Below, piece by piece: positions 34,407-64,000 of a stretch of DNA of 64,000 nucleotides. Below the pieces are notes generated by a model. That model was not told the origin of the DNA. It saw only the letters and a program-made list of their open reading frames with translations, and searched no databases. The DNA is taken from NCBI GenBank assembly GCA_028871475.1, contig JAGWMZ010000002.1:186001-250000 (forward strand), given 5' to 3'. This stretch comes from Sphingomonadales bacterium. GTDB taxonomy: Bacteria; Pseudomonadota; Alphaproteobacteria; Sphingomonadales; Sphingomonadaceae. The number at the start of each line of letters is the position of its first letter. Position 1 is the first letter of the stretch. The position numbers were made by a program, and so were the translations under genes.

Positions 34407-34468
34407 TCAAAAATGGCCTGCCTCGATGCGAAGGCGCTGTCAGGCATGTTTGGGAATAGGGTGTGCAC

Positions 34469-37558: not shown

Positions 37559-37682
37559 TGATCCAGCCGTCTCGGGAAGGGCAGGGCCATGCGCCTTGCC
37601 CGACCCGGTCGGCCTATGCTCCAGAAGGGCCAGGCGGTGGCTCTCCATCGTCTGGTATTTTGCGATAGTCCCGGGAAAGGTC

Positions 37683-45909: not shown

Positions 45910-46662
45910 TTACTGCCAGCCCTTGGCCTTTGCGGCCTGTTCCTGCTGCGCGTCGAGCGGATCGCCCTTGGCCATGGATTGCGCCAGCCCCATCAGTTCC
46001 GCGTCGGCGGAGCCTGCCTGCCGGTAATCGCCCGCCTCGGGCTGACTGCCGGGCAGCACATGCTGCAACTGCCATTGGCCCTTGTCATGGCAGGCAATGC
46101 CCGAGGCCTGCTGACCGCTGAACACCCGGCAGACATCGCCACTCTCGCGCCGGAACGTGCCCAGCATGCGGATCGAACCACTGCCCTGCGCCGAGGCAAG
46201 CTGCGTATCGAGCGCATGCCCCAGCGCGCCAGAGGCGACCAGCGCGCCATCCTTGACGCTGATCGGCCCGGTGTCGCGCCCGTGCCACTGCGTTCCGGCA
46301 AAGACGCCAATGGCAAGACAGGCCGCCATGGCCGCGCTCACCCATGCCCTGCCTTGCGTGGTCTGCCCGGATTGCTTCGGCTGGCGCGCGGCGCGCGCAG
46401 CTGCAAGATCCACCACCTGGGCCACGCGGGGCGGTTCCGGCGTGGTTTTCTGCCGGATGAGCCGAGCCCATTCCGGGGGCACCGGGGCCTGCGCGATGGG
46501 CGCGAAATGGGCGCTCAGCCGGTCACGCAGGGCGCGCTGTGCGGCGATGCGCTCGGCCAGATCGGGATCGCCCAGCGCCGCCAGCGTGACACGGCCACGC
46601 GCCTCCTCCTCCAGCTCGCCATCGACATAGGCCATGATCTCTTCGTCGGTCATATCGGTCAT
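45910..46662 (-). CDS. Anti-sigma factor-like single-TM protein
   Basis: MTDMTDEEIMAYVDGELEEEARGRVTLAALGDPDLAERIAAQRALRDRL cytoplasmic anti-sigma-like domain, TM VSAAMAACLAIGVFAGTQW; ATGA overlap with the sigma gene. Confidence 0.85.
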   Translation of the reverse strand: MTDMTDEEIMAYVDGELEEEARGRVTLAALGDPDLAERIAAQRALRDRLSAHFAPIAQAPVPPEWARLIRQKTTPEPPRVAQVVDLAAARAARQPKQSGQTTQGRAWVSAAMAACLAIGVFAGTQWHGRDTGPISVKDGALVASGALGHALDTQLASAQGSGSIRMLGTFRRESGDVCRVFSGQQASGIACHDKGQWQLQHVLPGSQPEAGDYRQAGSADAELMGLAQSMAKGDPLDAQQEQAAKAKGWQ

Positions 46663-47204
46663 GCCGTTTCTCCCAGCATGCGCATCAGCGCCTCGCGCCC
46701 GCGCACCAGCCGCGAGGTCAGCGTGCCCATGGGGCAACCGATGATCTCGGCGGCTTCCTTATAGGCAAAGCCTTCCACCAGCACGAGCATCACCGCCTCG
46801 CGCTGGTCGGCGGGCAGGGCGGCCATGGCGCGGTCGACATGAGCCATCTCGGCATGCGCCTCGATGGCCGCATCGCCCGCCACGCCCACATGCTCGCCCT
46901 CTTCCTCGGGGGCGAAGGTTTGCGCGCGTCTGCTGCGTGCCCTTGTCTCGTCAATCCAGAGGTTGCGCATGATCCGATACACCCATGCATCCAGCCGCGT
47001 TCCCTCCTGCCACAGATGGCTGGATTTGAGCGCGCGTTCGATCGTCGCCTGGCACAGGTCGTCGCCATCGGCCCCGTCGCGCGCCAGCCCGCGTGCGAAA
47101 CGCCGCATGCGGGGCAGCAGTTCGACCAGACTTTCCGCGAAATGGGTTGATGTCACGCCTTTTGCCTTGCTTGTGGATGAAACGGATGCAGGGATGCGTT
47201 TCAT
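46659..47204 (-). CDS. ECF RNA polymerase sigma factor
   Basis: LVELLPRMRRFARGLARDGADGDDLCQATIERALKSS (region 2), MALLP-like MAALPADQREAVMLVLVEGFAYKEAAEIIGCPMGTLTSRLVRGREAL (region 4). Start uncertain (ATG 47204 or GTG 47156). Confidence 0.93.
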   Translation of the reverse strand: MKRIPASVSSTSKAKGVTSTHFAESLVELLPRMRRFARGLARDGADGDDLCQATIERALKSSHLWQEGTRLDAWVYRIMRNLWIDETRARSRRAQTFAPEEEGEHVGVAGDAAIEAHAEMAHVDRAMAALPADQREAVMLVLVEGFAYKEAAEIIGCPMGTLTSRLVRGREALMRMLGETA

Positions 47205-47207
47205 CCA
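47174..47207. promoter_or_regulatory. Inverted repeat at the sigma/subtilase divergent junction
   Basis: TGGATGAAACG (47174-47184) - 12 nt - CGTTTCATCCA (47197-47207), perfect 11-bp arms. Confidence 0.55.
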
Positions 47208-47243
47208 TCGTGCCTGCCGTTTTTTTGATCCGGGAACAAGCCC

Positions 47244-48500
47244 ATGTGGAAAGCTTCGAAGCGATGGTTGCAAAGAGCCGGGCTGATCATGGCCCTGTCC
47301 GCCATGACGGGCGGCGCCCATGCCCAGATCAGCCTGCCCGGCGGTGTCGGCGGGCGGGTGGGCGATGCCGTGGGGCAATTGGGCGACAGGCTGGGCGAGA
47401 CGGTGGGCGATGTGACCCGCCCTGTCACCGACACGCTCGGCACGGTCGCGCAAATGGCACAGGCCCGCCTGTCGCGGCTGGATGCTTTCGTGCGCGGCCA
47501 TCGCGCCAGCGTCGAGGTGGATGACACCGGCCAGCCCGCGCGCGCGCATGAGGTGCTGCTGCTCGACCCCGATCCCGCCGCATTGGCCAGTGCGGCCTCG
47601 GCCGGGTTTGGCGTGATCGATCAGGGCGACCTTGGCGGATTGGGCGTGGCCTATGCGCGGCTCTCCACGCCCGCGGACATGGCGCTGGCCTCGGCACTGC
47701 GCCGCCTGCGCCACCTCTTGCCCGGCAAGGAGGTGAGCGCGGACCAGATCCATTTCACCAGCGGCAGCCTGGCTCCCGGCCGGGGCGAGGGCGGAGCGGC
47801 CCCGCAACCGCGCGGCGGCACGGTGGGCATCATTGACGGCGGGGTGACGCCCGGCGCCCGGATCGTGGCGCAGGCCGGCTTTGCCAGTGGCGGCCCGCAT
47901 CCCAACGCTCATGCGCAGGCGATTGCCTCGCTGCTGGCCGGGGCGGGCACGGCGCGCACCTATGTGGCCGATGTCTATGGCACCGATCCGGCGGGCGGCA
48001 ATGCGCTGGCCATCGCGCGGGCGCTGGCATGGATGGCGGGGCAGCATGTGCCGGTGGTGTCGATCAGCCTTGTCGGCCCGGCCAATCCCTTGCTGGCGCG
48101 TGCGATCGGCGCGGCGCAGTCACGCGGGATGATCGTGACGGCGGCGGTGGGCAATGATGGCGCCGCCGCGCCGCCCGCTTTCCCGGCCTCCTATGATGGT
48201 GTCATCGCGGTGACGGGGGTGGACGGGCACGGGCGCGTGCTGTTCGAGGCGGGCCATGCCAGCCATCTCGACTATGCCGCGCCCGGCGCCGACATGACTG
48301 CCATTGGTCTGCGCGGGAAGGTGGAACGGCTGCGCGGCACCTCCTTTGCCGCCCCTTTGGTGGCCGCGCGGATCGCCGCGCTCGATGAAGGGCATGCTTC
48401 ACGCCAGATGGTGCTCCGCCGGGCCGATGGTGAGGCTGTGGGGGCCAGCGCGCGCACCGGGCGCGGCATCCTGTGCGGAGCCTGCCGCAAGGGGATCTGA
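47244..48500 (+). CDS. Secreted S8 subtilisin-like serine protease (divergent)
   Basis: Signal peptide; VGIIDGGV (Asp), NAHAQAIASLLAGAG (His), AAVGNDGA (oxyanion Asn), GTSFAAPLVAARIA (Ser). Confidence 0.88.
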   Translation: MWKASKRWLQRAGLIMALSAMTGGAHAQISLPGGVGGRVGDAVGQLGDRLGETVGDVTRPVTDTLGTVAQMAQARLSRLDAFVRGHRASVEVDDTGQPARAHEVLLLDPDPAALASAASAGFGVIDQGDLGGLGVAYARLSTPADMALASALRRLRHLLPGKEVSADQIHFTSGSLAPGRGEGGAAPQPRGGTVGIIDGGVTPGARIVAQAGFASGGPHPNAHAQAIASLLAGAGTARTYVADVYGTDPAGGNALAIARALAWMAGQHVPVVSISLVGPANPLLARAIGAAQSRGMIVTAAVGNDGAAAPPAFPASYDGVIAVTGVDGHGRVLFEAGHASHLDYAAPGADMTAIGLRGKVERLRGTSFAAPLVAARIAALDEGHASRQMVLRRADGEAVGASARTGRGILCGACRKGI

Positions 48501-50134: not shown

Positions 50135-50905
50135 ATGCCCGCCATGGAAGAGGCACTCGAAGGACGAAGCGCAAGGCGCCTTGATGCGACGCGCAACGTC
50201 GAATTGCTGCACACGACCGTGGCCCGCGATCTGGGGATCGCCATTGTTCAGGGCAGGCACAAGCCGGGCGAACTGCTGCCCAGCGAACTGACCGCGGTGC
50301 AGACCCTGAAGATTTCGCGCCCTGCCTATCGCGAGGCGATCCGTATGCTGGCGGCCAAGAATCTCGTCGAGATCCGGCCCAAATCGGGCACACGGGTGCT
50401 GCCACGGCGACAATGGAATTTGCTCGATCCCGATGTTCTGGGCTGGATCCTTCAGAACGGCCCGCCAGATACATTCCTGACGGCCTTGTTCGATGTCCGC
50501 ATGATCGTGGAGCCGGCGGCGGCGGCTCTGGCGGCGCAGCGCCGGACACAGACCCATCTCGAACAGATGACCGATGCGCTCGACATCATGGGGCAGCATC
50601 CGCATGACAGCCCGGAAGGGCAGGCGGCCGATGAGGCGTTTCATCGCGTGCTGCTCGATGCGGCGGACAATGAGGTGCTCTCGCAGCTTGCCTCGCTGAT
50701 CGGGGCATCTGTCAGCTATATCGCCGAATTCAAGCGCAGCCGCCATGTGCCGCGTGACCCCAAGCCGGACCATGATGCCCTGTTCCGGGCGATTGCGGCC
50801 CGCCGCAGCGAGGCGGCGCGTTCGATCGTGCAGAACCTGATCGGGCATGCGCGCGAGGATATGGAGACCTTGTTCGACGACGGCGATCCGATGCCGCCGG
50901 GCTGA
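50135..50905 (+). CDS. GntR/FadR-family transcriptional regulator
   Basis: ARDLGIAIVQGRHKPGELLPSELTAVQTLKISRPAYREAIRMLAAKNLVEIRPKSGTRVLPRRQWNLLDPDVLGW; FCD-type C-terminal domain. Confidence 0.93.
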   Translation: MPAMEEALEGRSARRLDATRNVELLHTTVARDLGIAIVQGRHKPGELLPSELTAVQTLKISRPAYREAIRMLAAKNLVEIRPKSGTRVLPRRQWNLLDPDVLGWILQNGPPDTFLTALFDVRMIVEPAAAALAAQRRTQTHLEQMTDALDIMGQHPHDSPEGQAADEAFHRVLLDAADNEVLSQLASLIGASVSYIAEFKRSRHVPRDPKPDHDALFRAIAARRSEAARSIVQNLIGHAREDMETLFDDGDPMPPG

Positions 50906-50924
50906 AGGCTTCGGCGGGGGTGTT

Positions 50925-50976
50925 GCAAAAAATCCCGCCCGCATCGGTGCTTCATGGGAAGCATGATGCGGGCGGG
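50925..50976 (-). terminator. Rho-independent terminator of the minus-strand TonB receptor
   Basis: CCCGCCCGCATC (50934-50945)/GATGCGGGCGGG (50965-50976) with nested TGCTTC/GAAGCA; on the minus strand the stem is followed by ATTTTTTG. Confidence 0.88.
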
Positions 50977-50993
50977 CAGGGTGGATATGGTTC

Positions 50994-53879
50994 CTAGAAG
51001 CTCGAACGCAGGCCGATCGTCACGACGCGACCCAGCGGGTTGGCGCTGCTCGCGTCATAGCCGGTCGCGCCGCTGGTGCTGGCCACGTTGACGAAAGGCG
51101 GATCCTTGTCGAAGAGATTGGTCGCATCGACGAAGAGATTGGCTTTCTTGAAACGGCCGAAGTCCTTCAGCGTATAGGATACATGCAGGTCGACGGTGGT
51201 GAAGGGCGAGACATGATCGCCCCCGCCGACGGGCACGCCGGCGGCATTGCGCACAATCGGGTTCATCACGCCTGCGCCCCACCAGGTGTAGGGCCCTTCA
51301 TAGGTCACGCCCACCACCGCGTTGAACGGGCCCTTGTCATAGCCGATGTTGGCGCGGCCCTCGGTCTTGAGTGAAGGGAAGGTGGTGTTGAAACCTGCCG
51401 TGCCCAGCACGCTGAAATGGGTGCCATCGGCCCCGAACCATTGTTCGAACTTGGTTTTGCGGGTGAAGGAGCCGTCGAGCGTGACGTTCCCCGCCGGAGT
51501 GTTGAAGTGATACATCGCTTCAAAGTCGATGCCCGCAACATTGAGGTTGAGCACATTGTTCTGCGTGTAGTTGTAGATCCAGTAGGCGGTCGCGCTGGCG
51601 CCTGTCTGGGGTAGTGAGCCCTGCACCGCGGCAATTTGCGCCGCTGTGGCGCCGCCGGGATAGAGCGTCAGCAAATTGGACAGGCTGGCCGCACCGAAGG
51701 CATAGGCGCTGGTCGGCGCGGTGATGCCATTGCGCAACTGGTCGCTCCAGTAGGTCAGGCTGACCCGCAGGCCGGGGATCTGCACCGGCGTCAGGTCAAA
51801 TCCCACGCTCCAGTCCGTGCCCGTCTGCGGTTTCAGCCTGGCGTTGCCGCCTTGCAGGAAGACGCCATAGACGTTCGACAGGTTGCAGCTGGTGCTGGTG
51901 CACACCGCGCCCGGAATGGCCGTGACGCTGGGGTAGAGCGAGATCGGCACGTTGGTGAGGCCGCCTGCCACCGTGGTGCCAAGGCCATAGGCAAAGGCTG
52001 ATTCGCCAGTTTGGCCCGAGGCATTGGCGCCGATCGAGGTAAGGGCGGGGGCTACGAAGGAGCGCGACCAGTTGCCACGGAACTTGATGCCGCGCACCGG
52101 CTCGAAATTGGCGGCGACCTTGGGGTTGGTGGTGCTGCCGAAATCGCTGTAATGATCAAACCGGCCCGAGACGTTGACGTCGATCGACCTGACAAAGCCG
52201 TCCTTCACCAGTGGCAGATAGAGTTCGCCATAGACCGACTGCACATTGCGCTTGTAGGTGAGGGGGATGTAGATCGAATTGGCGCTGGCCCCGCCCAGAC
52301 CATTGAGCGCGGTGTGCGCCTGATCGATGGAATAGCCCAGCAATTCGCCGCCCACCGCTGCCTTCACCGCCCCGCCCGGCAGGTCGAAAAGTTCGCCGCT
52401 GATTTTGGCATAGGCGTTTCGCATAGTCTGGGTGGTGTTGTAGAATGTGGCGCTGTCGGTCAGTGAGGCCAGCGTCGCGGTGGATGTCTGGCCGCCAAAA
52501 GGATCGAAGGCATTGGCAGTGGTCAGCGTCTGGGTCACCGTTTCGGGGATGCCGTTCAGTGTGGCCGAGGTCGTGCCCGCCACTGCAAGGTTGAAGCTGG
52601 CCTGATTGAGCGTGCCCTGACTGATGATCTGGGAATGGTCGCGCCCGAACACGCCGCCGACATTCAGGGACCATTTGGGATTGAAGTCATAGGTCGCATC
52701 GAGATGGGCGTAGACATCCTCGGCGCTGCCTGTTGAGGTGGCGCCGGGCCCGTAGAGCTGGTTCGCATCGAAATTGATTGTGTAGGATGTCGGCGTCGTG
52801 CCGCCCAGATTGAAGGCGCGGAAATAGGGATTGGCCGAGGTCATCGTCGCTGAGGCCGAACCGCGCGACACGTTCGAGACCGTCTTGCGGAAAGAATAGT
52901 CGATATCGCCGACGATATGCAGATTGTCGCCGACATCCTGGCGGAGCTGGACATAGGCGGTGTGGCGCGTTTCCTGCGGCAGCAGGTCGCCGGCGGCGGG
53001 GGAGCAATTGCCCTGCTGCGTGGTGTTGTAGCTTCCGGCCGTGCCGGTGTTGTAATAGGTTTTGCCGCCTGCCGTCAGGCTGGGATTGGCGCATTTGTTG
53101 GTGGTCTGGTTCGTGCCGCCCAGCGGGACAAGGTTCACGCTGCGTGCATAGGAGCGGGCCTGTTGCGACAGGTTGGACTTGTCCGAGAAGCTGTAGGCCG
53201 CCAGCACCGATCCCGTGCTCCAGCTCTTGCCCCACAGCACCGCCGCGCTGTTGGTGTGATAGGCATTGCCAAAGCCGTGTTGCACATTGGCTTCAAGCCC
53301 GCTGAAGTTCTTGCGGGTGATGAAATTGATGACGCCGGCCACCGCGTCCGAGCCATAGACCGAGGAGGCGCCGTCGGTCAGCACCTCGACGCGTTCGAGC
53401 GCAATGGTGGGAATGATGTTGGGGTCGGCCAGCATATGGTTGGCCCCCGTGGTGGGGAGGCGGTGCCCGTTCATCAGGATCAGCGTCGAGTTTGAGGCCG
53501 ACGCGCCAAGACCGTGAATGGTCGGCGCATTGGTGCCCGAATTGTCCGCCGAGCCCGAGCTGCCCTGGCTGGGCGCCTGCAGGCCCGTGATCGAGGGCAC
53601 GGATTTGAGGATTTGCTGCACCGATTGCGCGGCCGTGTTGTCGATCTGCGCCTTGCCCAGCGTGGTCAGGGCCGAACCGACGGGCGCCACGCCTTTCAGG
53701 CTGGAGCCGGTCACGATGATGTCCCTGTCCGACGTGGTGGTGGGGGCGGCGGTATCCGCGTCCCGTGATGCCTGCCCCTGATTTGGCGGTGTTGTCTGCG
53801 CGATGGCGGGTGAATGCATAACGAACATCACTGCGCTTGCAGACGCGAGTAAAAACGCACGGCTTGCCGGCATGGTCAT
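50994..53879 (-). CDS. TonB-dependent receptor
   Basis: 961 aa; DIIVTGSSLKGVAPVGSALTTLGKAQIDNTAAQSVQQILKSVPSITGLQ...APTIHGLGASASNSTLILMNGHRLPTTG...VEVLTDGASSVYGSDAVAGVINFITRKNFSG; C-terminal GRVVTIGLRSSF. Confidence 0.97.
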   Translation of the reverse strand: MTMPASRAFLLASASAVMFVMHSPAIAQTTPPNQGQASRDADTAAPTTTSDRDIIVTGSSLKGVAPVGSALTTLGKAQIDNTAAQSVQQILKSVPSITGLQAPSQGSSGSADNSGTNAPTIHGLGASASNSTLILMNGHRLPTTGANHMLADPNIIPTIALERVEVLTDGASSVYGSDAVAGVINFITRKNFSGLEANVQHGFGNAYHTNSAAVLWGKSWSTGSVLAAYSFSDKSNLSQQARSYARSVNLVPLGGTNQTTNKCANPSLTAGGKTYYNTGTAGSYNTTQQGNCSPAAGDLLPQETRHTAYVQLRQDVGDNLHIVGDIDYSFRKTVSNVSRGSASATMTSANPYFRAFNLGGTTPTSYTINFDANQLYGPGATSTGSAEDVYAHLDATYDFNPKWSLNVGGVFGRDHSQIISQGTLNQASFNLAVAGTTSATLNGIPETVTQTLTTANAFDPFGGQTSTATLASLTDSATFYNTTQTMRNAYAKISGELFDLPGGAVKAAVGGELLGYSIDQAHTALNGLGGASANSIYIPLTYKRNVQSVYGELYLPLVKDGFVRSIDVNVSGRFDHYSDFGSTTNPKVAANFEPVRGIKFRGNWSRSFVAPALTSIGANASGQTGESAFAYGLGTTVAGGLTNVPISLYPSVTAIPGAVCTSTSCNLSNVYGVFLQGGNARLKPQTGTDWSVGFDLTPVQIPGLRVSLTYWSDQLRNGITAPTSAYAFGAASLSNLLTLYPGGATAAQIAAVQGSLPQTGASATAYWIYNYTQNNVLNLNVAGIDFEAMYHFNTPAGNVTLDGSFTRKTKFEQWFGADGTHFSVLGTAGFNTTFPSLKTEGRANIGYDKGPFNAVVGVTYEGPYTWWGAGVMNPIVRNAAGVPVGGGDHVSPFTTVDLHVSYTLKDFGRFKKANLFVDATNLFDKDPPFVNVASTSGATGYDASSANPLGRVVTIGLRSSF

Positions 53880-53894
53880 CTCCCCTTTGTTTTC

Positions 53895-53905
53895 TTGTCA
53901 TACCA
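53895..53905. promoter_or_regulatory. Candidate FadR-type operator
   Basis: TTGTCATACCA fits the TNGTNNNACNA pattern of the FadR subfamily of GntR regulators; lies just upstream of the minus-strand receptor start. Confidence 0.4.
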
Positions 53906-54125
53906 AAATTGCGATCCGTTTTAGTGATGTCAACAAGATTCCGCCTCATTCGTCAATTCTGCGGGACAGATGGCGATGACTCCGCACCATGCTTGCATTT
54001 TCACGCGAAGAAATTTCTGAAAAAATCACTCTTGCCTGACAAGAATCTCTCATGCAGGATGCGGGGAATTGCTCATCGAAGTGACAGGGCCGCATGCCGC
54101 CAAAGCGCATTCGGCAGGGAGAAGG

Positions 54126-54455
54126 ATGATGATGGCCGTGACAGGTCGGAACCTGGTTTTCGCGCTGATGGGCGCCCTTGTGGCGGCGTCATCGGCGCTG
54201 GGGCATGCGCAGTCAGCGGCGCCTGTGGTGGCCGCGCCCCAGCCTTCCGGCGCGCCCGGTGACCCTGACGAGCCCTTCGTGGAAGCGACCTGTGCCGACT
54301 GTCATCCCATGGTGCAGATCACGGCACGGCACATGAAGGCCGAGGAATGGGCCGCGATCGTCGACAGGATGATTGGTCTGGGAGCGCAGGTCACCTCGCA
54401 GGAGGATCGTGACAGGATCATTGCCTGGCTCGCGGCGCATCAGGGGCCCCAATGA
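54126..54455 (+). CDS. Small periplasmic c-type cytochrome-like protein
   Basis: Signal peptide; single heme motif EATCADCHPMVQI; HMKAEEWAAIVDRMIGLGAQVTSQEDRDRIIAWLAAHQ with a Met before the C-terminal helix. Confidence 0.85.
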   Translation: MMMAVTGRNLVFALMGALVAASSALGHAQSAAPVVAAPQPSGAPGDPDEPFVEATCADCHPMVQITARHMKAEEWAAIVDRMIGLGAQVTSQEDRDRIIAWLAAHQGPQ

Positions 54456-54931
54456 CAACAGATCTTATGATTGGACAGCAGGCAATGGCAAAGAAGATCC
54501 ATATTCTCAACGGCCCCAATCTTGGCCTTCTGGGGGTGCGTGAACCGCATCTCTATGGTTCGGCCACGCTGGCCGATGTCGAACGCGAATGCCGGGAGAT
54601 CGCCAAGCCCGCAGGATTCGAGGTGATCTGCCGCCAGACCGATGCCGAGCACGAGATGATCCATTTCATCCATGAGGCGCGCATCGGCGCGGCGGGCATC
54701 GTCATCAATCCGGCGGCCTTCTGCTATGCGGGCTATCCGGTGCTCGATGCGCTCAAGATGTGCGACTGCCCGATCATCGAGGTCCACATCACCAACATCC
54801 ACCGTCGCGAGGCGGAATGGCGCGCCAAATCGATCCTGACGCAGGGCGTGACGGGCATGATCAGCGGGCTGGGCATCGACGTTTACGGATTGGGGGTCCG
54901 TCACATCATCCGCGTGCGGTCGGGACAGTGA
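54452..54931 (+). CDS. aroQ: Type II 3-dehydroquinate dehydratase-family protein (divergent paralogue)
   Basis: IHILNGPNLGLLGVREPHLYGSATLADVE, VINPAAFCYAGYPVLDAL, IIEVHITNIHRREAEWRAKS and GLGIDVYGLGVRHI; ATGA overlap with the cytochrome. Confidence 0.88.
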   Translation: MTTDLMIGQQAMAKKIHILNGPNLGLLGVREPHLYGSATLADVERECREIAKPAGFEVICRQTDAEHEMIHFIHEARIGAAGIVINPAAFCYAGYPVLDALKMCDCPIIEVHITNIHRREAEWRAKSILTQGVTGMISGLGIDVYGLGVRHIIRVRSGQ

Positions 54932-56235
54932 CGCGCGCGACGGCAAGGGCGGGGCAGAAGGAGCGGGGGGCACGCCCGACGCGCGCCCGCTTTGCCGTGC
55001 TGGCTCTGGTGACGGCCGCGACCGTGCTCAATTACCTTGACCGATCGGTGATGAGCGTCGCTGCCAGGCCAATGAGCGCGGAACTGGGCCTGTCGCCCGG
55101 CATGCTGGGCGTGATCTTCTCGGCTTTTTCATGGACCTATGCGGCCGCGCAGATCCCGGGCGGACTGCTGCTCGACCGGCTGGGGACGAGGCTCACCTAT
55201 GCCCTTTCGCTCATTTTCTGGTCGGCCTTCACGCTGCTCCATGGCTTTGCCGCCAACATCGGCACGCTGATCGGCCTGCGCTTTGGCCTCGGCATCGCGG
55301 AGGCGCCCTGCTATCCCTGCAACAGCCGCATTCTGGCGACCTGGTTTCCGCAGGGCGAACGGGCCCGCGCGACGGGAGTTTACTCGGTGGGGCAATATTT
55401 TGGCCTCGCCTTTCTCAGCCCGCTGCTGTTCTGGATCGTGGCGAACTGGGGCTGGCGCAGCCTGTTCATCCTGGTCGGCGCCATTGGCATCGCCTTCGGG
55501 CTTGCCTGGTATGGGGTCTATCGCGATCCTGTGCACAGCACACGGGTGAACAGGGTCGAACTGGCGCATATCGCCGCTGGCGGCGGCATGGGCACCACAC
55601 GGACGCCGCCCTTTTCCTGGGCGCGCATGGGCAGCCTTATGGCCCGGCGGCAGGTGCTGGGCGCCTCGCTGGGTCAGTTCTGCAGCAATTCGGCGCTGGT
55701 TTTCCTGATCACCTGGTTCCCCACCTATCTGTCCACCGAGCGCCATCTCGATTTCGTGAAGTCCGGTTTTTTCGTCGCCTTGCCCTATGTGGCCGCGTCG
55801 CTGGGTGTGCTCTCGGGCGGGGTGGTGTCGGATTGGCTGATCCGCCGCACAGGCTCTGCCACCATTGGCCGCAAGGCGCCGGTGGTCGCCGGATTGTTGC
55901 TCGTCTCCACCATCCTGTCGCTTGGCGCCATTCGCGACAATGGATTGTTGATCGCGGTGATGTCGGTGGCAGCCTTTGGTCAGGGTCTGTGCAATCTCGG
56001 CTGGACGCTGATTTCCGATGTCGCCCCTGAAGGCGAAATCGGCCTGACGAGCGGCATCTTCAACCTGTGCACCAACATCGCGGGCATTGTCACACCCATG
56101 GTGATCGGTTTTGTCGTGCAGGCTTCGGGATCATTCCGGGGCGCGCTGGTCTATATCGGCAGCGTCGCCTTGCTGGGGGTGCTCTCCTATCTTTTCGTCA
56201 TTGGTGACGTGCGGCGCCTTGCGGCAGACAGCTGA
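54928..56235 (+). CDS. MFS transporter, ACS family
   Basis: VLNYLDRSVMSVAARPMSAELGLSPGMLGVIFSAFSWTYAAAQIPGGLLLDRLGTRLTYALSLIFWSAFT. GTG start at 54928 overlaps the aroQ-like stop. Confidence 0.93.
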   Translation: MTRATARAGQKERGARPTRARFAVLALVTAATVLNYLDRSVMSVAARPMSAELGLSPGMLGVIFSAFSWTYAAAQIPGGLLLDRLGTRLTYALSLIFWSAFTLLHGFAANIGTLIGLRFGLGIAEAPCYPCNSRILATWFPQGERARATGVYSVGQYFGLAFLSPLLFWIVANWGWRSLFILVGAIGIAFGLAWYGVYRDPVHSTRVNRVELAHIAAGGGMGTTRTPPFSWARMGSLMARRQVLGASLGQFCSNSALVFLITWFPTYLSTERHLDFVKSGFFVALPYVAASLGVLSGGVVSDWLIRRTGSATIGRKAPVVAGLLLVSTILSLGAIRDNGLLIAVMSVAAFGQGLCNLGWTLISDVAPEGEIGLTSGIFNLCTNIAGIVTPMVIGFVVQASGSFRGALVYIGSVALLGVLSYLFVIGDVRRLAADS

Positions 56236-56306
56236 TTGAAAAAACGAACAAGGCCGGGCGGGGCGCAAAGGACCGATGCCGGCAAAGCCAGAAGGAAGGC
56301 GAGAGG

Positions 56307-58292
56307 ATGACGCTGATCTTGCGAGCAGGCGTAAGCGCGCTGCTGATGACATGGGCCACCACCGGTGCCATCGCCGCCATGGCCGCGCCGGACCAGGACT
56401 GGAGCAGACCGAACGGCGATGGCGCGGCAACCCGCTTTTCGCGCGCCGGCCAGATCACGCCTGCCAACATCGGCCATCTCAGGCAGGCCTGGGTCTTCCA
56501 TATGAAGCCGGCGACGGCCGCTCCCACAGCGGTGCCCAGCGCGGCGGATCAGGCGCAGGCCGCCGCGGAACAGGCGGGGCCGCCACCCGGCGCGCCGCCT
56601 GCCGCTGGAGGTGCGGGCGCAAGGCGCTTTCCGGCTTTCTTCGGCAATGGCCGGTTCAGTGCCTCGGAAACCGCGCCGCTGATCGTCGGGGGCACCATGT
56701 ATGTCGCCACGCCCTACAATCAGGTCGTGGCGCTCAACGCGGCCACGGGCGAGAAGATCTGGTCGCACGATCTGCCCAAGGGCGTGCAGCCCGCCCGGCG
56801 CGGCATGGACTTCTGGCCCGGCGAGAAAGGGCAGGGCGCCGCGCTGTTCTTTGGCGGCAGCGACGGGCGGCTTTACGCGCTGCGGATCGCCGACGGCCAG
56901 CCCAGCCCCGGCTTTGGCGAGAAGGGCTCGATCAACCTCAGGACGCCCGACGTGATGGTCACGGGGATGAACAAGCCCTATTCGATGACCTCGCCGCCCG
57001 TGATCTGGGGGCATCTGGTCATCACCGGATCGGCGGTGGGGGAAGGGATCGGCGGCGCGGTGGGCGATGTGCGCGCCTGGGATGCCAGGACCGGCAAGCT
57101 CGTCTGGACGGTCCATTCCGTGCCCCGGCCCGGCGAGCCCAACACCGGCAGCTGGGCGGGCGAGAGCGGCCATAACCGTTCTGGCGTCAATGTGTGGGGC
57201 GAGATGACGGTCGATGCGAAACGCGGCATCGTCTATCTTCCCTTCGGCGCGCCGGCGGATGACCGGGTGGGCGTCGACCGGCCCGGCAACAACCTTTATG
57301 GTTCCTCGGTCGTCGCGGTCGATGCGGCGACGGGGCGCTACATCTGGCATTTCCAGGTCGTCCACCACGACATCTGGGACAATGATACCGAAACCCCGCC
57401 GATGCTGTTCGACGTGAAGCATGGCGGCAAGGTCATTCCGGCGGTGGGCATCTTTTCGAAAAACCAGATGCTGTTCATCCTCAACCGCGTCACCGGCAAG
57501 CCGATCTATGGCGTGGAGGAGCGCCCGGTTCCCAAAAGCGACGTGCCCGGCGAGATCACTTCGCCCACGCAGCCCTTTCCCGTGCTGCCCGCACCGCTGG
57601 CGCAGATGAGCATGACCACCGACCAATTGTCGAAGATCACGCCCGAGCAGGAGACTTTCTGCCGCAAGCTGGTGGCGGACAACGCCATTGCGATGGGCGG
57701 CCCCTACAATCCTCCCACCTACAACCGCCCCATGGTCTATATGCCCGGCACCATCGGCGCGCTGTTTGGCGGCAGCTTTGACCCCGCGCGCGGGCTTTAT
57801 ATCGTCAACATCTCGCCCTTGGGGCAAATACAGGAGATCATGCCCAACGGGCAGGGCGGTTTCTACAATATGGGGCCGGTCAATGGCCGTTTCTGGAATC
57901 CGGCCACGCGGATGCCGTGCCAGAGCGGTTCATGGGGTGATCTGGTGGCGGTCAACGTCAACACTGGCAAAATTGCCTGGCGCAGCCGTCTGGGCGTGAC
58001 CGACAGCCTGCCCGCCGCCTTGCAGGCCACCGGGCGGCCATCGGCGGGCGGCCCGACCAGCACGGCGGGCGGCGTGACCTTCATCGGGGCCACCGACGAT
58101 GCGCGGTTCCGGGCTTTTGACACGAAGACCGGCAAGGAGATCTGGAGTGACCGGCTGCCGGCCCCGGCCCATAGCGTGCCGGTGAGTTACAGTGTGAAGG
58201 GCAGGCAATATGTCGCCATCGTTGCCACGGGCGGCAGCTTTCTGGGCACGCCGGTCACCAGTGACAGTCTCATCGTCTATAGCCTGCGGTAA
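56307..58292 (+). CDS. Secreted PQQ-dependent quinoprotein dehydrogenase
   Basis: DWSRPNGDGAATRFSRAGQITPANIGHLRQAWVFHMKP, VVALNAATGEKIWSHDL, YIWHFQVVHHDIWDNDTETPPMLFDV, STAGGVTFIGATDDARFRAFDTKTGKEIWSDRLPAPAHSVPVSYSVKGRQYVAI. Confidence 0.93.
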   Translation: MTLILRAGVSALLMTWATTGAIAAMAAPDQDWSRPNGDGAATRFSRAGQITPANIGHLRQAWVFHMKPATAAPTAVPSAADQAQAAAEQAGPPPGAPPAAGGAGARRFPAFFGNGRFSASETAPLIVGGTMYVATPYNQVVALNAATGEKIWSHDLPKGVQPARRGMDFWPGEKGQGAALFFGGSDGRLYALRIADGQPSPGFGEKGSINLRTPDVMVTGMNKPYSMTSPPVIWGHLVITGSAVGEGIGGAVGDVRAWDARTGKLVWTVHSVPRPGEPNTGSWAGESGHNRSGVNVWGEMTVDAKRGIVYLPFGAPADDRVGVDRPGNNLYGSSVVAVDAATGRYIWHFQVVHHDIWDNDTETPPMLFDVKHGGKVIPAVGIFSKNQMLFILNRVTGKPIYGVEERPVPKSDVPGEITSPTQPFPVLPAPLAQMSMTTDQLSKITPEQETFCRKLVADNAIAMGGPYNPPTYNRPMVYMPGTIGALFGGSFDPARGLYIVNISPLGQIQEIMPNGQGGFYNMGPVNGRFWNPATRMPCQSGSWGDLVAVNVNTGKIAWRSRLGVTDSLPAALQATGRPSAGGPTSTAGGVTFIGATDDARFRAFDTKTGKEIWSDRLPAPAHSVPVSYSVKGRQYVAIVATGGSFLGTPVTSDSLIVYSLR

Positions 58293-58302
58293 GGACAAGC
58301 TT

Positions 58303-59298
58303 ATGAAAAAGATCATTGGTTTGCTGCTTCTGGCCAGTTGCGGCGCGGCTGGTGCTCAGGTCGGCAATCCGGGCGGTGCGATCAACGACCGGCTCGGTGA
58401 CCGGGATTATGGCGTGTGTCGCGGCGTCGATCCGCGCTGTTTTCACGATTGGCCACGCGCCGCTGTGAAACAGTACCGTATCCTGCTCTACACCCATACC
58501 GCCGGGCCGCGTCACGCCAATCTGGGTGCGCCGCTGGGCGCCGGGCTCAATCCCCCGCTGGGGCCCGATAACATTGCCCAGCGCGAGATGCTGCGGATCG
58601 CGCAGGAGAATGGCTGGGCCATCGACTATACGGAAGACCCCCGGGACATGGCCAATCTGAGCGGCTATCACGCGGTGATCTTCCTCTCCACCTCGCGCGA
58701 TGCTCTCGACGACAATGGCAAGACGGCGCTGCGCCAGTATATGCGGGCGGGCGGCGGCTTCGTGGCAATCCATAACGCCTTTGGCACGCTGTATAACTGG
58801 CCCTATTACGAAGGCCTGCTGGGCAATGCCAATTTCTACGATCACGGCCCGGCGCGTGACGGGGATGTGGTGATCGTTGACGACAAGGATGCTGCGACCC
58901 ATGGCCTGCCAGCCCGTTGGCGCTTCCATGACGAATGGTACAATCTCATCCCCTTTCCCACCCATGTGCGCTTTCTGGCGACCATAGATGAAAAGTCCTG
59001 GGACCCGGCGCAGGCCCATTATCCCGATGGCCCGCCAAGGGCGATGAGCGGCCCGCGTCCGCCGAATTTGCCGCCCATGTCGCGCTATCCATCGGTGGTG
59101 GGGCATCATCCCGGTCACGGCAGCTTTCACCCGGTTGTCTGGTGCCAATATTACGATGGCGGCAAGGTCTGGGTGACGACATTGGGCCATGATGCCAAGG
59201 CCTTCGAGAAGGATGGCGAACCGGGCGCCGCGCAGTTTCAGGCGATGATCACGGGCGGCATCAAGTCGGTGATGGGCGCGGCGCCGTTCTGCCGATAG
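58303..59298 (+). CDS. Secreted ThuA-domain protein
   Basis: Signal peptide; YRILLYTHTAGPRHANLG, GYHAVIFLSTSRDALDDNGKTALRQYMRAGGGFVAIHNAFGTLYNWPYYEGLLG, VVWCQYYDGGKVWVTTLGHD. Confidence 0.9.
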   Translation: MKKIIGLLLLASCGAAGAQVGNPGGAINDRLGDRDYGVCRGVDPRCFHDWPRAAVKQYRILLYTHTAGPRHANLGAPLGAGLNPPLGPDNIAQREMLRIAQENGWAIDYTEDPRDMANLSGYHAVIFLSTSRDALDDNGKTALRQYMRAGGGFVAIHNAFGTLYNWPYYEGLLGNANFYDHGPARDGDVVIVDDKDAATHGLPARWRFHDEWYNLIPFPTHVRFLATIDEKSWDPAQAHYPDGPPRAMSGPRPPNLPPMSRYPSVVGHHPGHGSFHPVVWCQYYDGGKVWVTTLGHDAKAFEKDGEPGAAQFQAMITGGIKSVMGAAPFCR

Positions 59299-59403
59299 CT
59301 GTCAGGTAAACGCTCGCACCCGGCCTGCGTGACATGCTTGTGTCGGCCGCGGCCATGGCGCCGACCCGCCGTCAACGGGGCGGCGGCGCCTTGGCATGGG
59401 CGG

Positions 59404-59805
59404 TCAATACTCGTCTTCGTCGGTGCGAAACGTCAGTTCGACCTTGATGCCATTGGGGTCAAGCAGGTTGAGCTGATGCAGGCGGCGGGCCGGCAAGGGC
59501 TGTTCGCGAAAGGCAACGCCATTGGCGGTCAATCGCTCGCGGCAGCTGGACAGGCCGCTGCAGTCAAAGGCGACATGGTCGAGGCGGCTGGCCTGGCCGG
59601 CGGGCGCTGCCGCTTCGCCGGGCAGTGGCGCGTTGACGTGAATGAGCGGCTGGCCCTGCTCGTCATAGAGCCAGACATTGTCGGGGCGCATCACCGCTGA
59701 CACCGCCGGGCCCCGGCGAAAGCCGAGACAGGCTTCATAGAACAGCAGCGTTTCCTCGAACAGCGGCGTGCGGATGTTGACATGGCCAAGGCGATCGACG
59801 CGCAT
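59404..59805 (-). CDS. VOC-family (glyoxalase/bleomycin-resistance fold) protein
   Basis: MRVDRLGHVNIRTPLFEETLLFYEACLGFRRGP...RLDHVAFDCSGL...LNLLDPNGIKVELTF. Confidence 0.88.
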   Translation of the reverse strand: MRVDRLGHVNIRTPLFEETLLFYEACLGFRRGPAVSAVMRPDNVWLYDEQGQPLIHVNAPLPGEAAAPAGQASRLDHVAFDCSGLSSCRERLTANGVAFREQPLPARRLHQLNLLDPNGIKVELTFRTDEDEY

Positions 59806-59877
59806 AAGGTGAAATCCGATTGGTCTACGGCGCAATTCTCGCGGCTTCTGGCGGTGTGTCAATGGCTCAAAACGCAA

Positions 59878-59908
59878 CGGGGGCAGGTCTGGAAAAGACC
59901 TGCCCCCG
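59878..59908 (-). terminator. Rho-independent terminator of the minus-strand TonB receptor
   Basis: CGGGGGCAGGTCT-GGAAA-AGACCTGCCCCCG, perfect 13-bp stem; minus-strand continuation TTGCGTTTTG. Confidence 0.8.
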
Positions 59909-59940
59909 GGGATTGCGCAGTGTGAAGTGGATCGAGCCGA

Positions 59941-62151
59941 TCAGAACTTCACGCTGAAGCGGACACCATATTCGCGCGGTGCACCATAGAACTCGTTCTT
60001 GCCGCTCTGGCCCGAGACATAGAAGTTGTTGGTGATGTTGGTGCCATAGAATTCCAGTCGCAGATCGCCCTTGTCGATCGCGACGCTGGCGTTCAGCAGG
60101 CTGTGGGCGTTGAGAAGGTCGGTGGCCGCGACATAGGTGACATAGGCCCACTGTGACCCGACATAGGCGTAGTTGATGCGCGGGGTGACGGTAACGTCGT
60201 TGCCGGCCGCGATCTTGTACTGCGCGCCCACGTTCCACGTCCATTTGGGACTGTAGAGGTTGGGGCCGCCGCTGGAGGTGGTCAGCGTGGGGGTGTAGTC
60301 AAAGCAGCGCGCCGCATTCGACCCGGTGCACTGGGGGAAGCCGGAAAACTGGCTGGGTACCGCCCATTTGTTGATCAGCGTGAAGCCGCTCAGGCTGGAG
60401 TCGACGAAAGACATGCCGCCATCGAGCGACAGCGCGCCAGTATGGGCCTGGAAGCTGGCCTCAAAGCCCTTGATGGTGGCATTGGCCAGATTGGTGACGC
60501 CACCCGCGCCCGAGCTCTGGTTGATGATGTCTTCCTGGAAGTTCTTGTATGAATTGTAGAACACGCCAAGCTGGGTGCGGACATGGCGATCCAGGAAGGT
60601 GGACTTCCAGCCGGCTTCGTAATCCATCACCGTTTCGGGATTGAACGTGCCACCCGGCGGGTTGATGCCGCCGTTCTTGTAACCGCGCGCGGCAAAGACA
60701 TAGATCAGATTGTTGCTGTCGGGCTTGTAGTTCAGCGTGATCTTGCCGGTGGCGCGGCCATCGCCTTCGGTGCCCGTCTGGGGCACCAGCACGGTGCGGT
60801 TGGGCAGCATCACCGCCCCCGTGCCATCGACGTGGAAATGCGAGTAGCGCAGGCCTGCCTCGATCTGCAACTTGTCAGTCAACTGGTAGCTGGCCTGGCC
60901 GAACACGCCGACCAGCGCCTTGTTGGTGTCGGGCTCGATCAGCAGGGTGGTGGCGCCGGCGGTGGTGTTGTAATTGCGCACGTTGATCTTGTTGCGCTGG
61001 CCATAGGCGCCCAGCACATATTTGAAGCGGCCGGTGTCGGGCGAGATGATGTTGATTTCCTGTGAATACTGACGTTCGCGCACGAATTGCCCCGAACCCA
61101 GCGTGGCCAGTTCGGTGCCGTCGGTATCGTAGAGGTTGTTGATGCGCTTGTTCAGATAGGCGGTGCGCGACAGCACGGTCAGCCCGCTGTCAAACTGGTA
61201 CTTGAGTTCCAGCTGGGTGATGGTGGCGCGTTCAAAGTTCGACGGGTTGCTGTTGTAGTCGATGGTCCAGGGGGTGGTGGTGCGCCCGGCGGAAAACTGG
61301 GTGGTGGCGATAGGGCGATAGGCATAGCCGCCGGTCTGGCGGTCGATCAGTTCGACCTTGCCCAGCGCGGAAAAACCGCCCGATTTCCACAAGGCCTGAA
61401 CGCGGGCGTCATGCTCGCTCAACCGGTCCGGCGTGGCATGGGCGGGGCCGATGTCCGTGTAATAGCTGTCGCGCGACGCGGCCAGACCTGCCACGCGGAT
61501 GGCCAGCGTGTCCGTCACCGGCAGGTTGATCGCAACATTGGCGTTCAAATTCTGAAAGTTGCCATAGGCAACCGTGCCGCTGCCGCCGAACTTGCCCAGA
61601 ACCGGCTTGTTCGTGTTCATGTACAGCGCGCCGCCGGTGGAATTGGCGCCCGAGAGGGTGCCCTGCGGCCCGCGGAGCACTTCGACGCCGGCCATGTCGT
61701 AGAACTGCGCGCCCGAGACGATCGGGGGCTGGAACACGCCGTCCAGATAGGTGGACACGCCATTGGTGACCTGGGGTGAGCCGGAGGCCAGGCCGATGCC
61801 GCGGATGTTGATCGAGTCGGTCAGGCCCGCCTTGACGATGGAGAGGCCCGGCGAGGCGTTCTGGAGATCCGACTGGCGCACCACCGCCTTGTCGCCCAGC
61901 GCGTCGCCGGACAGGGCGGTGACCGCGATCGCCACATTCTGCACGCTTTCGCGGCGGCGCTGGGCCGTGACCACGATGTCCTTGCTGTCATCGGGCGCCT
62001 TGTCTGGTGCAGCCGCGTCAGCCGTCGGCGCGGAGGGCGCTGTCTGGGTGTCGGCCAGAGCCGGGTTCGAGGCCAGGATCGTACCCGCCAGCAGCAGGCA
62101 GGCGGCATGATGGCGCAGACGATACGTGGCTGCAAAGGGCAGTTTGCCCAT
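59941..62151 (-). CDS. TonB-dependent receptor (siderophore/aromatic type)
   Basis: 736 aa; DIVVTAQRRRESVQNVAIAVTALSGDALGDKAVVRQSDLQNASPGLSIVKAGLTDSINIRGIGLASGSPQVTNGVSTYLDGVF...VEVLRGPQGTLSGANSTGGALY; C-terminal REYGVRFSVKF. Confidence 0.97.
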   Translation of the reverse strand: MGKLPFAATYRLRHHAACLLLAGTILASNPALADTQTAPSAPTADAAAPDKAPDDSKDIVVTAQRRRESVQNVAIAVTALSGDALGDKAVVRQSDLQNASPGLSIVKAGLTDSINIRGIGLASGSPQVTNGVSTYLDGVFQPPIVSGAQFYDMAGVEVLRGPQGTLSGANSTGGALYMNTNKPVLGKFGGSGTVAYGNFQNLNANVAINLPVTDTLAIRVAGLAASRDSYYTDIGPAHATPDRLSEHDARVQALWKSGGFSALGKVELIDRQTGGYAYRPIATTQFSAGRTTTPWTIDYNSNPSNFERATITQLELKYQFDSGLTVLSRTAYLNKRINNLYDTDGTELATLGSGQFVRERQYSQEINIISPDTGRFKYVLGAYGQRNKINVRNYNTTAGATTLLIEPDTNKALVGVFGQASYQLTDKLQIEAGLRYSHFHVDGTGAVMLPNRTVLVPQTGTEGDGRATGKITLNYKPDSNNLIYVFAARGYKNGGINPPGGTFNPETVMDYEAGWKSTFLDRHVRTQLGVFYNSYKNFQEDIINQSSGAGGVTNLANATIKGFEASFQAHTGALSLDGGMSFVDSSLSGFTLINKWAVPSQFSGFPQCTGSNAARCFDYTPTLTTSSGGPNLYSPKWTWNVGAQYKIAAGNDVTVTPRINYAYVGSQWAYVTYVAATDLLNAHSLLNASVAIDKGDLRLEFYGTNITNNFYVSGQSGKNEFYGAPREYGVRFSVKF

Positions 62152-62186
62152 CCTCTCTCTCCAAACATTATGGCGCCTGAGGCGCG

Positions 62187-62208
62187 GTTGCTATAAACGC
62201 TATGCAAC
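62187..62208. promoter_or_regulatory. Inverted repeat upstream of the TonB receptor
   Basis: GTTGC (62187-62191) TATAAACGCTAT GCAAC (62204-62208). Confidence 0.35.
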
Positions 62209-62231
62209 ATAACATTTACCTCGACGCAAGA

Positions 62232-62249
62232 TGGATAATGTAATATCCA
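62232..62249. promoter_or_regulatory. Inverted repeat in the TonB receptor/tannase divergent promoter
   Basis: TGGATA-ATGTAA-TATCCA perfect 6-bp arms, central in the intergenic region 62152-62306. Confidence 0.45.
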
Positions 62250-62306
62250 ATAGCAAATTCGCGCGCTGTGGCGTAAAGGTCACAGACGATAAGAAGGGAG
62301 AGCTGT

Positions 62307-64000
62307 ATGAAGGGACTTCACCATCGCTTGCGTCAGGGTCTGCTGGCCGCGGGGGCCTGCGCGGTCACGGGCCTGGCCCTCTCGGGAACCGGCCTGAATG
62401 CGACGCAGTCCGCCGAGTCGCCCCCTCCGGCCCCTGCTCCCGCAATGACCCCCGCCATGGCTTCAGAGCCGGCGGGCACGGCCTGCTCGGCCGCGTTGGC
62501 GGTCGCCTGGCCCGAGGCCGGCACGCGAATCGAACGGGCTGCTCCGGTTCCCGCTGGCCTGATCAACGGGCAGATGATCCCCGCCCATTGCGAGGTCTTT
62601 GGCATCATGCATGAGCATAAGGGCGTGGACGGGCAGGACTATGCCATCCGCTTTCACATGCGCCTGCCCGAGGCATGGAATGGCCGGTTCTTCTTTCAGG
62701 GTGGCGGCGGATCGAATGGCGAGATCGGCGATGCGCTGGGGCGGGTGAGCATGGTGCGCGGTTCCGCGATCACCCCGGCGATCATGCGCGGCTATGCGGT
62801 GGTCAGCCAGGATTCGGGCCATGACAATCAGCGCAACAGCAATCCCAAGAGGGGCGGGCCAACGGCCTTCGGTTTCGACCCGCAGGCGCGCAGCGAGTAT
62901 GGCCATGCCTCTCTGGCCCCCGTTGCCCTGGCCGCCAAGGCCATTGTGACCGCCTTCTACCACCGGCCTATTGTTCATTCCTATTTCGTGGGCTGCTCAA
63001 AGGGCGGCGAGGAGGGCATGGTCTTTGCCCAGCAGCATCCCGACATTTTTGACGGCATCATGGCGGCGGCCCCCGGTTTTGCCCTGCCGCGTGCCGCTGT
63101 CGAGGAAACCTGGGAAGTGCAGCGGCTGTCCCGGCTTCTGGCCAGGCCGGTCTCCTTCCCGGCTTTCCATACGGCGCTGACGGATCAGGATCTGGCCATC
63201 GCCGGGCGTGCGATCACCAGGGCCTGCGATGCGCTTGACGGCGCGGCCGATGGCATGGTGAGCAATGTGGCGGCCTGTACGACCGCCCGTGTGCGCCCCC
63301 AGATCGAGGCCAGCGTCTGCAAGGCGGGCCAGAGCGATTGCCTGACCCGTGCCAAGGCCGACACGCTCTATGACCTGATGCGCGGCGCCCGGCGCCCTGA
63401 TGGCAGCGCGATCTATTCCGACTGGGCGTGGGACCCGGGCATTGCGACACCAGGCTGGCGCATCTGGAAGCTGGGCTCATCGGACGGCAAGGTGCCCGCG
63501 CTCAACATTGTGCTGGGTGGGGCCTCGCTCCATACGGTCTTCATCGTGCCGCCGGTCGAGGTGCCGGGTGATCCGCAGGGCCTGCTCGATGCGGAATTGC
63601 GTTTCAATGTGTTGACCGATGGCCAGAAGATCTACGCCACCGGCGCAGGTTTCACCCATTCGGCCTGGCAGGATTCATCGGCGCATTCGACCGACCTGTC
63701 CGCCTTTGCCGCGCATGGCGGCAAGCTGATCGTGCCGCATGGCGCTGCCGATCCCGTGTTCTCGCTGCGCGATACGCTGGGCTGGTGGCAGGGCGTCAAT
63801 GCCCGCGCGAAGGGCAAGGCCTCCAGCTTTGCGCGTGTGTTTCCCGTGCCGGGCATGAACCATTGCGGCGGCGGCGACGCTGCCGATCAGTTCGACGGCC
63901 TCGCCGCGCTGGTGGATTGGGTCGAGCATGGCAAGGCTCCGGCCTCGATTCCCGCCAAGGGTGACCCGCAGGCGCCCTGGCCGGACCGCACCCGCCCGCT
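62307..64000 (+). CDS. Tannase/feruloyl esterase-family secreted esterase (3' end outside window)
   Basis: Open plus-strand frame to the window edge, absent from the ORF track. Signal-like leader; PEAWNGRFFFQGGGGSNGEIGDALG, FVGCSKGGEEGMVFAQQHPDIFDGIMAAAPGF (GCSxGG nucleophile), VPGMNHCGGGDAADQFDGLAALVDWVEHGKAP (His). Confidence 0.9.
   Translation, partial: MKGLHHRLRQGLLAAGACAVTGLALSGTGLNATQSAESPPPAPAPAMTPAMASEPAGTACSAALAVAWPEAGTRIERAAPVPAGLINGQMIPAHCEVFGIMHEHKGVDGQDYAIRFHMRLPEAWNGRFFFQGGGGSNGEIGDALGRVSMVRGSAITPAIMRGYAVVSQDSGHDNQRNSNPKRGGPTAFGFDPQARSEYGHASLAPVALAAKAIVTAFYHRPIVHSYFVGCSKGGEEGMVFAQQHPDIFDGIMAAAPGFALPRAAVEETWEVQRLSRLLARPVSFPAFHTALTDQDLAIAGRAITRACDALDGAADGMVSNVAACTTARVRPQIEASVCKAGQSDCLTRAKADTLYDLMRGARRPDGSAIYSDWAWDPGIATPGWRIWKLGSSDGKVPALNIVLGGASLHTVFIVPPVEVPGDPQGLLDAELRFNVLTDGQKIYATGAGFTHSAWQDSSAHSTDLSAFAAHGGKLIVPHGAADPVFSLRDTLGWWQGVNARAKGKASSFARVFPVPGMNHCGGGDAADQFDGLAALVDWVEHGKAPASIPAKGDPQAPWPDRTRP

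Follow-up and report, generated by a model that had tools for sequence, protein, structure and literature searches.

Known systems for quinate and hydroxycinnamate catabolism

Chlorogenate-type esters are abundant plant phenolics, and the literature searched on sphingomonad chlorogenate catabolism describes no sphingomonad locus. In Acinetobacter baylyi, QuiA, QuiB and QuiC of the pca-qui cluster lead from quinate to protocatechuate: a PQQ enzyme converts quinate to 3-dehydroquinate, which is followed by two dehydrations (PMC4213383). In type II dehydroquinases, the C5 hydroxyl of the substrate is held by His81 (PMC6011038), and in Sphingobium SYK-6 lignin aromatics are taken up in a TonB-dependent manner, as described for DdvT (PMC6874591). 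Here, we compare with these systems a window of 64,000 nucleotides, meaning the whole stretch of DNA analysed, which corresponds to bases 186001-250000 of contig C9 in a 4.97-Mb genome. The genome belongs to the same genus as Novosphingobium rosa, and the same locus is carried by G030 and L036. The predicted gene set would probably allow this Novosphingobium-like bacterium to import and degrade quinic-acid esters from plants, for example chlorogenic acid, and we think it likely that the window contains the import-and-entry half of a utilisation system for hydroxycinnamoyl-quinates (chlorogenate-type) or other acyl-quinates. While the chemistry of such a pathway is known, the composition of the gene set, a dehydroquinase clade with Tyr in place of His81 and the link between a ThuA protein and a PQQ dehydrogenase are new in detail. 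A preliminary description of the window, which had proposed the import and catabolism of a quinate-like ester, is partly supported: its outline holds, its extent fell short, and it assigned too much to the PQQ enzyme and the tannase.

Gene organization of the island

The first gene of the island codes for a GntR/FCD protein (50135-50905, +; PF07729 and PF00392), the probable local regulator, and is followed on the minus strand by that of the TonB receptor TBDR1 (50994-53879; PF00593/PF07715), the predicted importer of a quinate-type substrate. A plus-strand run then encodes a small exported mono-haem cytochrome c (ORF 54069-54455, start also placed at 54126), which has a single CADCH motif (54291-54305) and no Pfam match, an AroQ-like type II 3-dehydroquinate dehydratase (54485-54931, ORF opening at 54452; PF01220), an MFS transporter of the anion:cation symporter type (about 54928-56235; PF07690), a predicted soluble periplasmic PQQ beta-propeller dehydrogenase (56307-58292; PF01011, 567 bits) and an exported ThuA-family protein (about 58303-59298; PF06283, 151.8 bits versus a gathering threshold of 33.4). 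A VOC/glyoxalase-fold protein (59404-59877; PF00903, a weak match with E=8.5e-07) and a second TonB receptor, TBDR2 (59941-62151; PF00593, 109 bits), are encoded on the minus strand, and an exported protein of the tannase/feruloyl-esterase family (62307-64100; PF07519, 311 bits) on the plus strand. The gene families previously named for the island were all confirmed at these coordinates with Pfam and NCBIfam profile HMMs. The ORF of the tannase passes the window end by 100 bases (to 64100, contig-equivalent). The island does not stop there but continues with genes for a MarR regulator, a DUF3237 protein (64919-65443) and a vanillin/salicylaldehyde-type dehydrogenase, at contig positions equivalent to window 64237-66852.

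Both gene overlaps reported for the plus-strand run are present in the sequence. The AroQ-like gene does overlap that of the MFS transporter at a GTGA (54928-54931), whereas the ATGA start at 54452, within the cytochrome gene, is perhaps not used, since the AroQ-like homologs, including that of N. rosa, have their start some 11 codons later, at the position corresponding to Met12 (54485). Upstream of the island, window positions 34463-39023 encode another TonB receptor and then a GDSL lipase, and two opposite-strand ORFs overlap at 46659-48047 (-) and 47244-48500 (+), with sigma-70/PhyR-like and subtilase matches in different parts.

Conservation of the locus

A search with the AroQ-like protein as query yielded 26 loci, the nearest of which share neighbors. 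Six PQQ-type loci can be distinguished, namely the window, L036 of N. rosa, L090 from the same genus, and L040, L043 and L045 from a gammaproteobacterial, a Caulobacterales and a Hyphomonadaceae bin, respectively. The AroQ-like protein, the MFS transporter, the PQQ dehydrogenase, ThuA and TBDR1 are common to all six, with TBDR1-type receptors being 43-75% identical, and homologs of the small cytochrome c are found in five, the exception being L045. Five further loci (L038, L039 and L041 of Sphingobium, L042 of Sphingomonas vulcanisoli and L091 from the same genus) are without the PQQ enzyme and ThuA. MFS homologs with 55-86% identity lie beside AroQ-like genes, and over both locus types the neighbors include an NAD quinate/shikimate dehydrogenase, the 3-dehydroshikimate dehydratase QuiC, a BD-FAE esterase, a carboxylesterase and a TetR regulator. 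The NAD dehydrogenase was counted with the AroQ-like gene in eight of ten related loci, those named being L038-L043, L045, L090 and L091, and is found on contig C90 in the window's own genome. QuiC accompanies the AroQ-like relatives in L038-L042 and L091. The non-PQQ locus L038 also encodes, at 8802-9893 (+) next to the AroQ-like gene, a conserved protein of 358-416 amino acids with homologs in L039, L041 and L042 and no Pfam or NCBIfam match.

The gene set is far beyond chance, because its core recurs in other genera, with examples from Sphingomonadales, Caulobacterales, Hyphomonadaceae and gammaproteobacterial bins. It is true that strands alternate along the island and that VOC, the tannase and TBDR2 are not conserved, but in view of this recurrence it is hardly credible that the genes, although individually real, are chance neighbors and form no functional unit. 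Still, VOC, TBDR2 and the tannase are tied to the island less firmly. VOC is conserved only in N. rosa among the related loci, TBDR2 and the tannase were found in none of the related loci compared, N. rosa included, and TBDR2 has no similarity to TBDR1 detectable by BLASTP at 1e-5.

The quinate genes also meet genes for hydroxycinnamate degradation. L090 is a single 15-kb run with genes for the quinate dehydrogenase, TBDR1, MFS, AroQ-like, PQQ, ThuA, cytochrome and BD-FAE esterase proteins, TetR, FerA, FerB and a MarR regulator. FerA and FerB are likewise present in L042, where they lie, together with a DUF3237 protein and an aldehyde dehydrogenase, beside the quinate genes. The co-occurrence of quinate and hydroxycinnamate genes in L090 and L042 matches the two products of a hydroxycinnamoyl-quinate ester. 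DUF3237 proteins recur beside quinate or hydroxycinnamate genes, and are also found in L038, L039, L041 and L042.

A dehydroquinase clade with Tyr at position 81

The AroQ-like protein scores far above the gathering threshold of PF01220 (DHquinase_II; 151.8 versus 23.3 bits) and passes the subfamily model NF003807 (161.5 versus 130), but stays below the NCBIfam AroQ equivalog cut-off, TIGR01088 (140.5 versus 169.85). In an active-site alignment (M. tuberculosis numbering), Asn12, Arg19, Tyr24, Asn75, Asp88, Glu99, His101, Arg108 and Arg112 are all retained, whereas His81 is replaced by Tyr in every clade member (codon 54725-54727 in the window). All 20 of 20 close relatives keep the chemical residues and have Tyr for His81. 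These Tyr81 relatives form one clade (support 100/100), in which the neighbors of position 81 are also changed and a Phe-to-Trp exchange precedes Arg112. As His81 contacts the C5 hydroxyl of the substrate, these changes could indicate that the enzyme has lost dehydroquinase activity and acts on another substrate. We regard this as very unlikely, because every chemical residue is kept and nine genomes (G004, G013, G034, G019 and those of L037, L044, L047, L048 and L049) have no type II enzyme other than the clade member, with no type I dehydroquinase found in them. Some of these are incomplete bins, while G004 and G034 are 99% complete. In five Tyr81-only genomes with a high-scoring accB that were checked, the usual aroQ upstream of accB-accC is absent, and in G034 and G013 the sole dehydroquinase lies inside the quinate locus. 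As the only dehydroquinase found in nine genomes, the AroQ-like enzyme very probably still dehydrates 3-dehydroquinate, and a dead or non-dehydroquinase enzyme was rejected on the same ground. The simplest reading is that the Tyr81 clade has taken over dehydroquinate dehydration in biosynthesis in these genomes. The AroQ-like dehydratase belongs to a previously unrecognised branch; with the standard dehydroquinase apparently replaced in several genomes, a residue thought to be conserved would be dispensable or replaceable. The loci for which the Tyr81-type was the only dehydroquinase detected are L008, L009, L010, L011, L037, L044 and L047-L049, from nine genomes.

The PQQ dehydrogenase and its partners

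The PQQ enzyme was originally taken to be a quinate dehydrogenase, an assignment that is now less well supported. The protein has a signal peptide and is without the N-terminal membrane domain of QuiA and Gcd. TIGR03074, the model for membrane-bound quinate/glucose dehydrogenases, aligns from position 120 of the protein and only to profile positions 205-782, and its score is below the cut-off (399 versus 832.65). The catalytic Asp and Lys align to D466 and K493 of E. coli Gcd, and His262 and Arg201 of the glucose enzyme are missing. Since L040, L043, L045 and L090, four of the six PQQ-type loci, also encode the NAD quinate/shikimate dehydrogenase, the PQQ enzyme may act at a different ring position, on shikimate or on the uncleaved ester. 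The small cytochrome c is its probable electron acceptor. The own genome encodes two more PQQ dehydrogenases at C36:17602-24673 (L093), one of which shares 46% identity with the window enzyme and precedes a small cytochrome c of the same type.

ThuA is the constant partner of the PQQ enzyme, being present in all six PQQ-type loci and in none of the five others (Fisher p = 0.002, for loci that are not independent), and the proteins split into two diverged subtypes. The preliminary description had left ThuA unexplained; it still fits no reaction of the proposed pathway, but a large and poorly known family gains a definite enzymatic partner. It is possible, if somewhat doubtful, that the PQQ dehydrogenase works with cytochrome c and ThuA as an oxidation module of its own in the periplasm, which acts on another polyol, a sugar or an acylated cyclitol and merely lies beside the quinate locus, and that quinate is oxidised in the cytoplasm by the C90 NAD enzyme. 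The co-occurrence of both dehydrogenases in four PQQ-type loci, the five related loci that manage with the NAD enzyme alone, the features of QuiA and Gcd missing from the PQQ enzyme and the second PQQ-cytochrome pair on C36 are all consistent with this idea. However, the TBDR1, MFS and AroQ-like neighbors are shared in five separate lineages, and a PQQ and an NAD quinate dehydrogenase may be present together to handle different substrates, for instance quinate and shikimate. A more speculative and rather improbable proposal is that the three proteins constitute a periplasmic oxidise-then-cleave module, in which an acylated quinate would be converted to a ring ketone and ThuA would help to release the acid or to rearrange the keto-cyclitol, in parallel to 3-keto-sugar routes; together with the Tyr81 clade, this would make up a distinct route for hydroxycinnamoyl-quinates. 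The literature searched on ThuA in connection with keto-sugars contained nothing on point.

Remaining pathway steps in the genome

A dehydroshikimate dehydratase and protocatechuate genes are located elsewhere in the genome. QuiC is encoded on contig C90, so its absence from the genome was ruled out. It scores below the strict NCBIfam cut-off (651 versus 1200 bits) and resembles the solved protein 5hmq along its whole length (577 bits). Its neighbors are an NAD dehydrogenase resembling the quinate/shikimate dehydrogenase of Corynebacterium glutamicum (3jyo/2nlo, 256 bits), a carboxylesterase, an MFS protein with 59% identity to the window carrier and a TBDR1 paralog with about 75% identity. 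In this sister quinate locus (C90:33499-43905; L071, L072), the genes for QuiC, the NAD dehydrogenase, the carboxylesterase and the MFS protein are intact. The C90 receptor is split across two frames, which can be an assembly fault, and of the C90 AroQ only some 70 residues are left, close to a transposase-like ORF where the contig ends. Because AroQ and the receptor of C90 are broken, both loci would be served by the intact copies in the window.

That QuiC and the NAD dehydrogenase lie on another contig and not beside the window genes speaks against the quinate-ester reading, as do the scores of QuiC and the PQQ enzyme below their cut-offs, the absence of the tannase, TBDR2 and (except in N. 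rosa) VOC from related loci, and a ThuA protein that the pathway does not need. In N. rosa, a GntR gene whose product is 86% identical to that of the window closes contig C46, with QuiC some 5 kb away, and contig C47 begins with TBDR1; the two contigs are probably adjacent, and therefore QuiC would sit in the same locus there. Across the genus, the association of the AroQ-like gene with QuiC (4/6 versus 5/31, Fisher p = 0.022) is weak, given that the genomes are related.

Protocatechuate ring-cleavage genes are present on contig C1, which encodes LigA, LigB, LigK and an oxalomesaconate tautomerase, with LigAB, LigK and the tautomerase above the curated cut-offs. FerB and FerA are intact on contig C34. 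FerB passes the p-hydroxycinnamoyl-CoA hydratase/lyase cut-off (450.7 versus 276), and the suspicion that FerA is broken was rejected, as the supposed stops fall outside its 702-codon ORF. PqqE is found on contig C51 (558 versus a cut-off of 381), and the biosynthetic aroQ is a separate gene upstream of accB-accC on C50. In G013, G066 and G067, a PQQ dehydrogenase is present in the locus and no PqqE scores above the cut-off; these organisms may scavenge PQQ, or the genomes may be incomplete. The genome thus contains a quinate catabolic set beyond biosynthesis, with a second dehydroquinase in the window and QuiC and the NAD quinate dehydrogenase on C90, and the window is predicted to be one part of a dispersed hydroxycinnamoyl-quinate pathway. 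The earlier proposal of outer-membrane import followed by quinate-type catabolism via a type II dehydroquinase draws strong support from these genes elsewhere in the genome (QuiC, FerBA, LigAB, PqqE) and from the related loci, where the NAD dehydrogenase and QuiC lie beside the same AroQ-like gene.

Proposed ester hydrolysis and pathway

The tannase meets its family score and has an N-terminal signal-like sequence (read by eye). Its place in the island, as first proposed, finds less support as far as a conserved part is concerned. Of the proteins encoded further downstream, the MarR regulator has CouR as its closest PDB relative, and the aldehyde dehydrogenase is closest to salicylaldehyde and vanillin dehydrogenases. 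The tannase, TBDR2 and the vanillin-type dehydrogenase might be a neighboring module in their own right, for gallate or ferulate esters and with no relation to the quinate genes. The restriction of the tannase and TBDR2 to the window among the related loci fits such a module, as does the position of the MarR, DUF3237 and aldehyde dehydrogenase genes on the far side of these two. However, a MarR homolog adjoins the quinate genes in N. rosa (79% identity) and L090 (74%), and with the gene arrangement of L042 the two halves repeatedly meet, so we consider independence unlikely.

We hypothesize that the window genes act in a hydroxycinnamoyl-quinate pathway as follows. TBDR1 would carry quinate, either free or still in the ester, through the outer membrane, and a secreted esterase, here the tannase-family protein and also the carboxylesterase of C90, would release hydroxycinnamate and quinate. 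The soluble PQQ dehydrogenase would oxidise a ring hydroxyl in the periplasm, with the small cytochrome c receiving the electrons. The MFS carrier, which matches best the D-galactonate transporter family of NCBIfam (363 bits, below the cut-off), is predicted to take up quinate or dehydroquinate across the inner membrane. The AroQ-like enzyme would form 3-dehydroshikimate from 3-dehydroquinate, QuiC of C90 would convert it to protocatechuate, and LigAB and the downstream enzymes of C1 would open the ring. The acid half would be degraded via FerA/FerB of C34 and the vanillin-type aldehyde dehydrogenase just beyond the window, with its genes presumably under the control of the CouR/FerC-like MarR regulator. 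Of this scheme, the sequences themselves establish the protein families, the retained active-site residues, the gene linkage and the occurrence of the remaining steps in this genome, while the substrates (that of the esterase included), the direction of the PQQ reaction, its electron acceptor, the regulation and the part played by ThuA are predicted.

Comparison with known systems

From the comparison, a compact gene set emerges that lends itself to testing, and the steps missing from the window can be placed. As in A. baylyi, quinate is predicted to be converted via 3-dehydroquinate to protocatechuate. However, in A. baylyi the steps take place in the periplasm and the membrane-bound QuiA feeds into ubiquinone, whereas here a soluble PQQ enzyme is found with a small cytochrome c, the dehydroquinase is without a signal peptide, the 4,5-cleavage (Lig) route would open the ring, and the set additionally comprises TonB receptors and ThuA. 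The QsuD-type NAD quinate/shikimate dehydrogenase of C. glutamicum is the closest solved relative of the C90 dehydrogenase, the gene for which lies outside the window. The C90 QuiC has the same two-domain architecture as the QuiC1-type dehydratase of Pseudomonas, which is fused to an HPPD-like domain, with a match over the full length, but in contrast to that type it remains under the equivalog cut-off. With the ferulate system of Sphingobium SYK-6 (FerA, FerB, FerC and LigV), the genes described here share an ADP-forming-type feruloyl-CoA synthetase, a hydratase/lyase, a MarR regulator and a vanillin-type dehydrogenase, as well as TonB receptors predicted to act on aromatics; in contrast to SYK-6, the ferulate genes are joined to quinate catabolism in related loci. 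The window dehydroquinase shares family score, fold and catalytic residues with AroQ, and differs by belonging to the His81-to-Tyr clade and by not reaching TIGR01088. Lastly, ThuA is of the same family (PF06283) as that of trehalose utilisation, but here it is exported and tied to the PQQ enzyme and not to ThuB.
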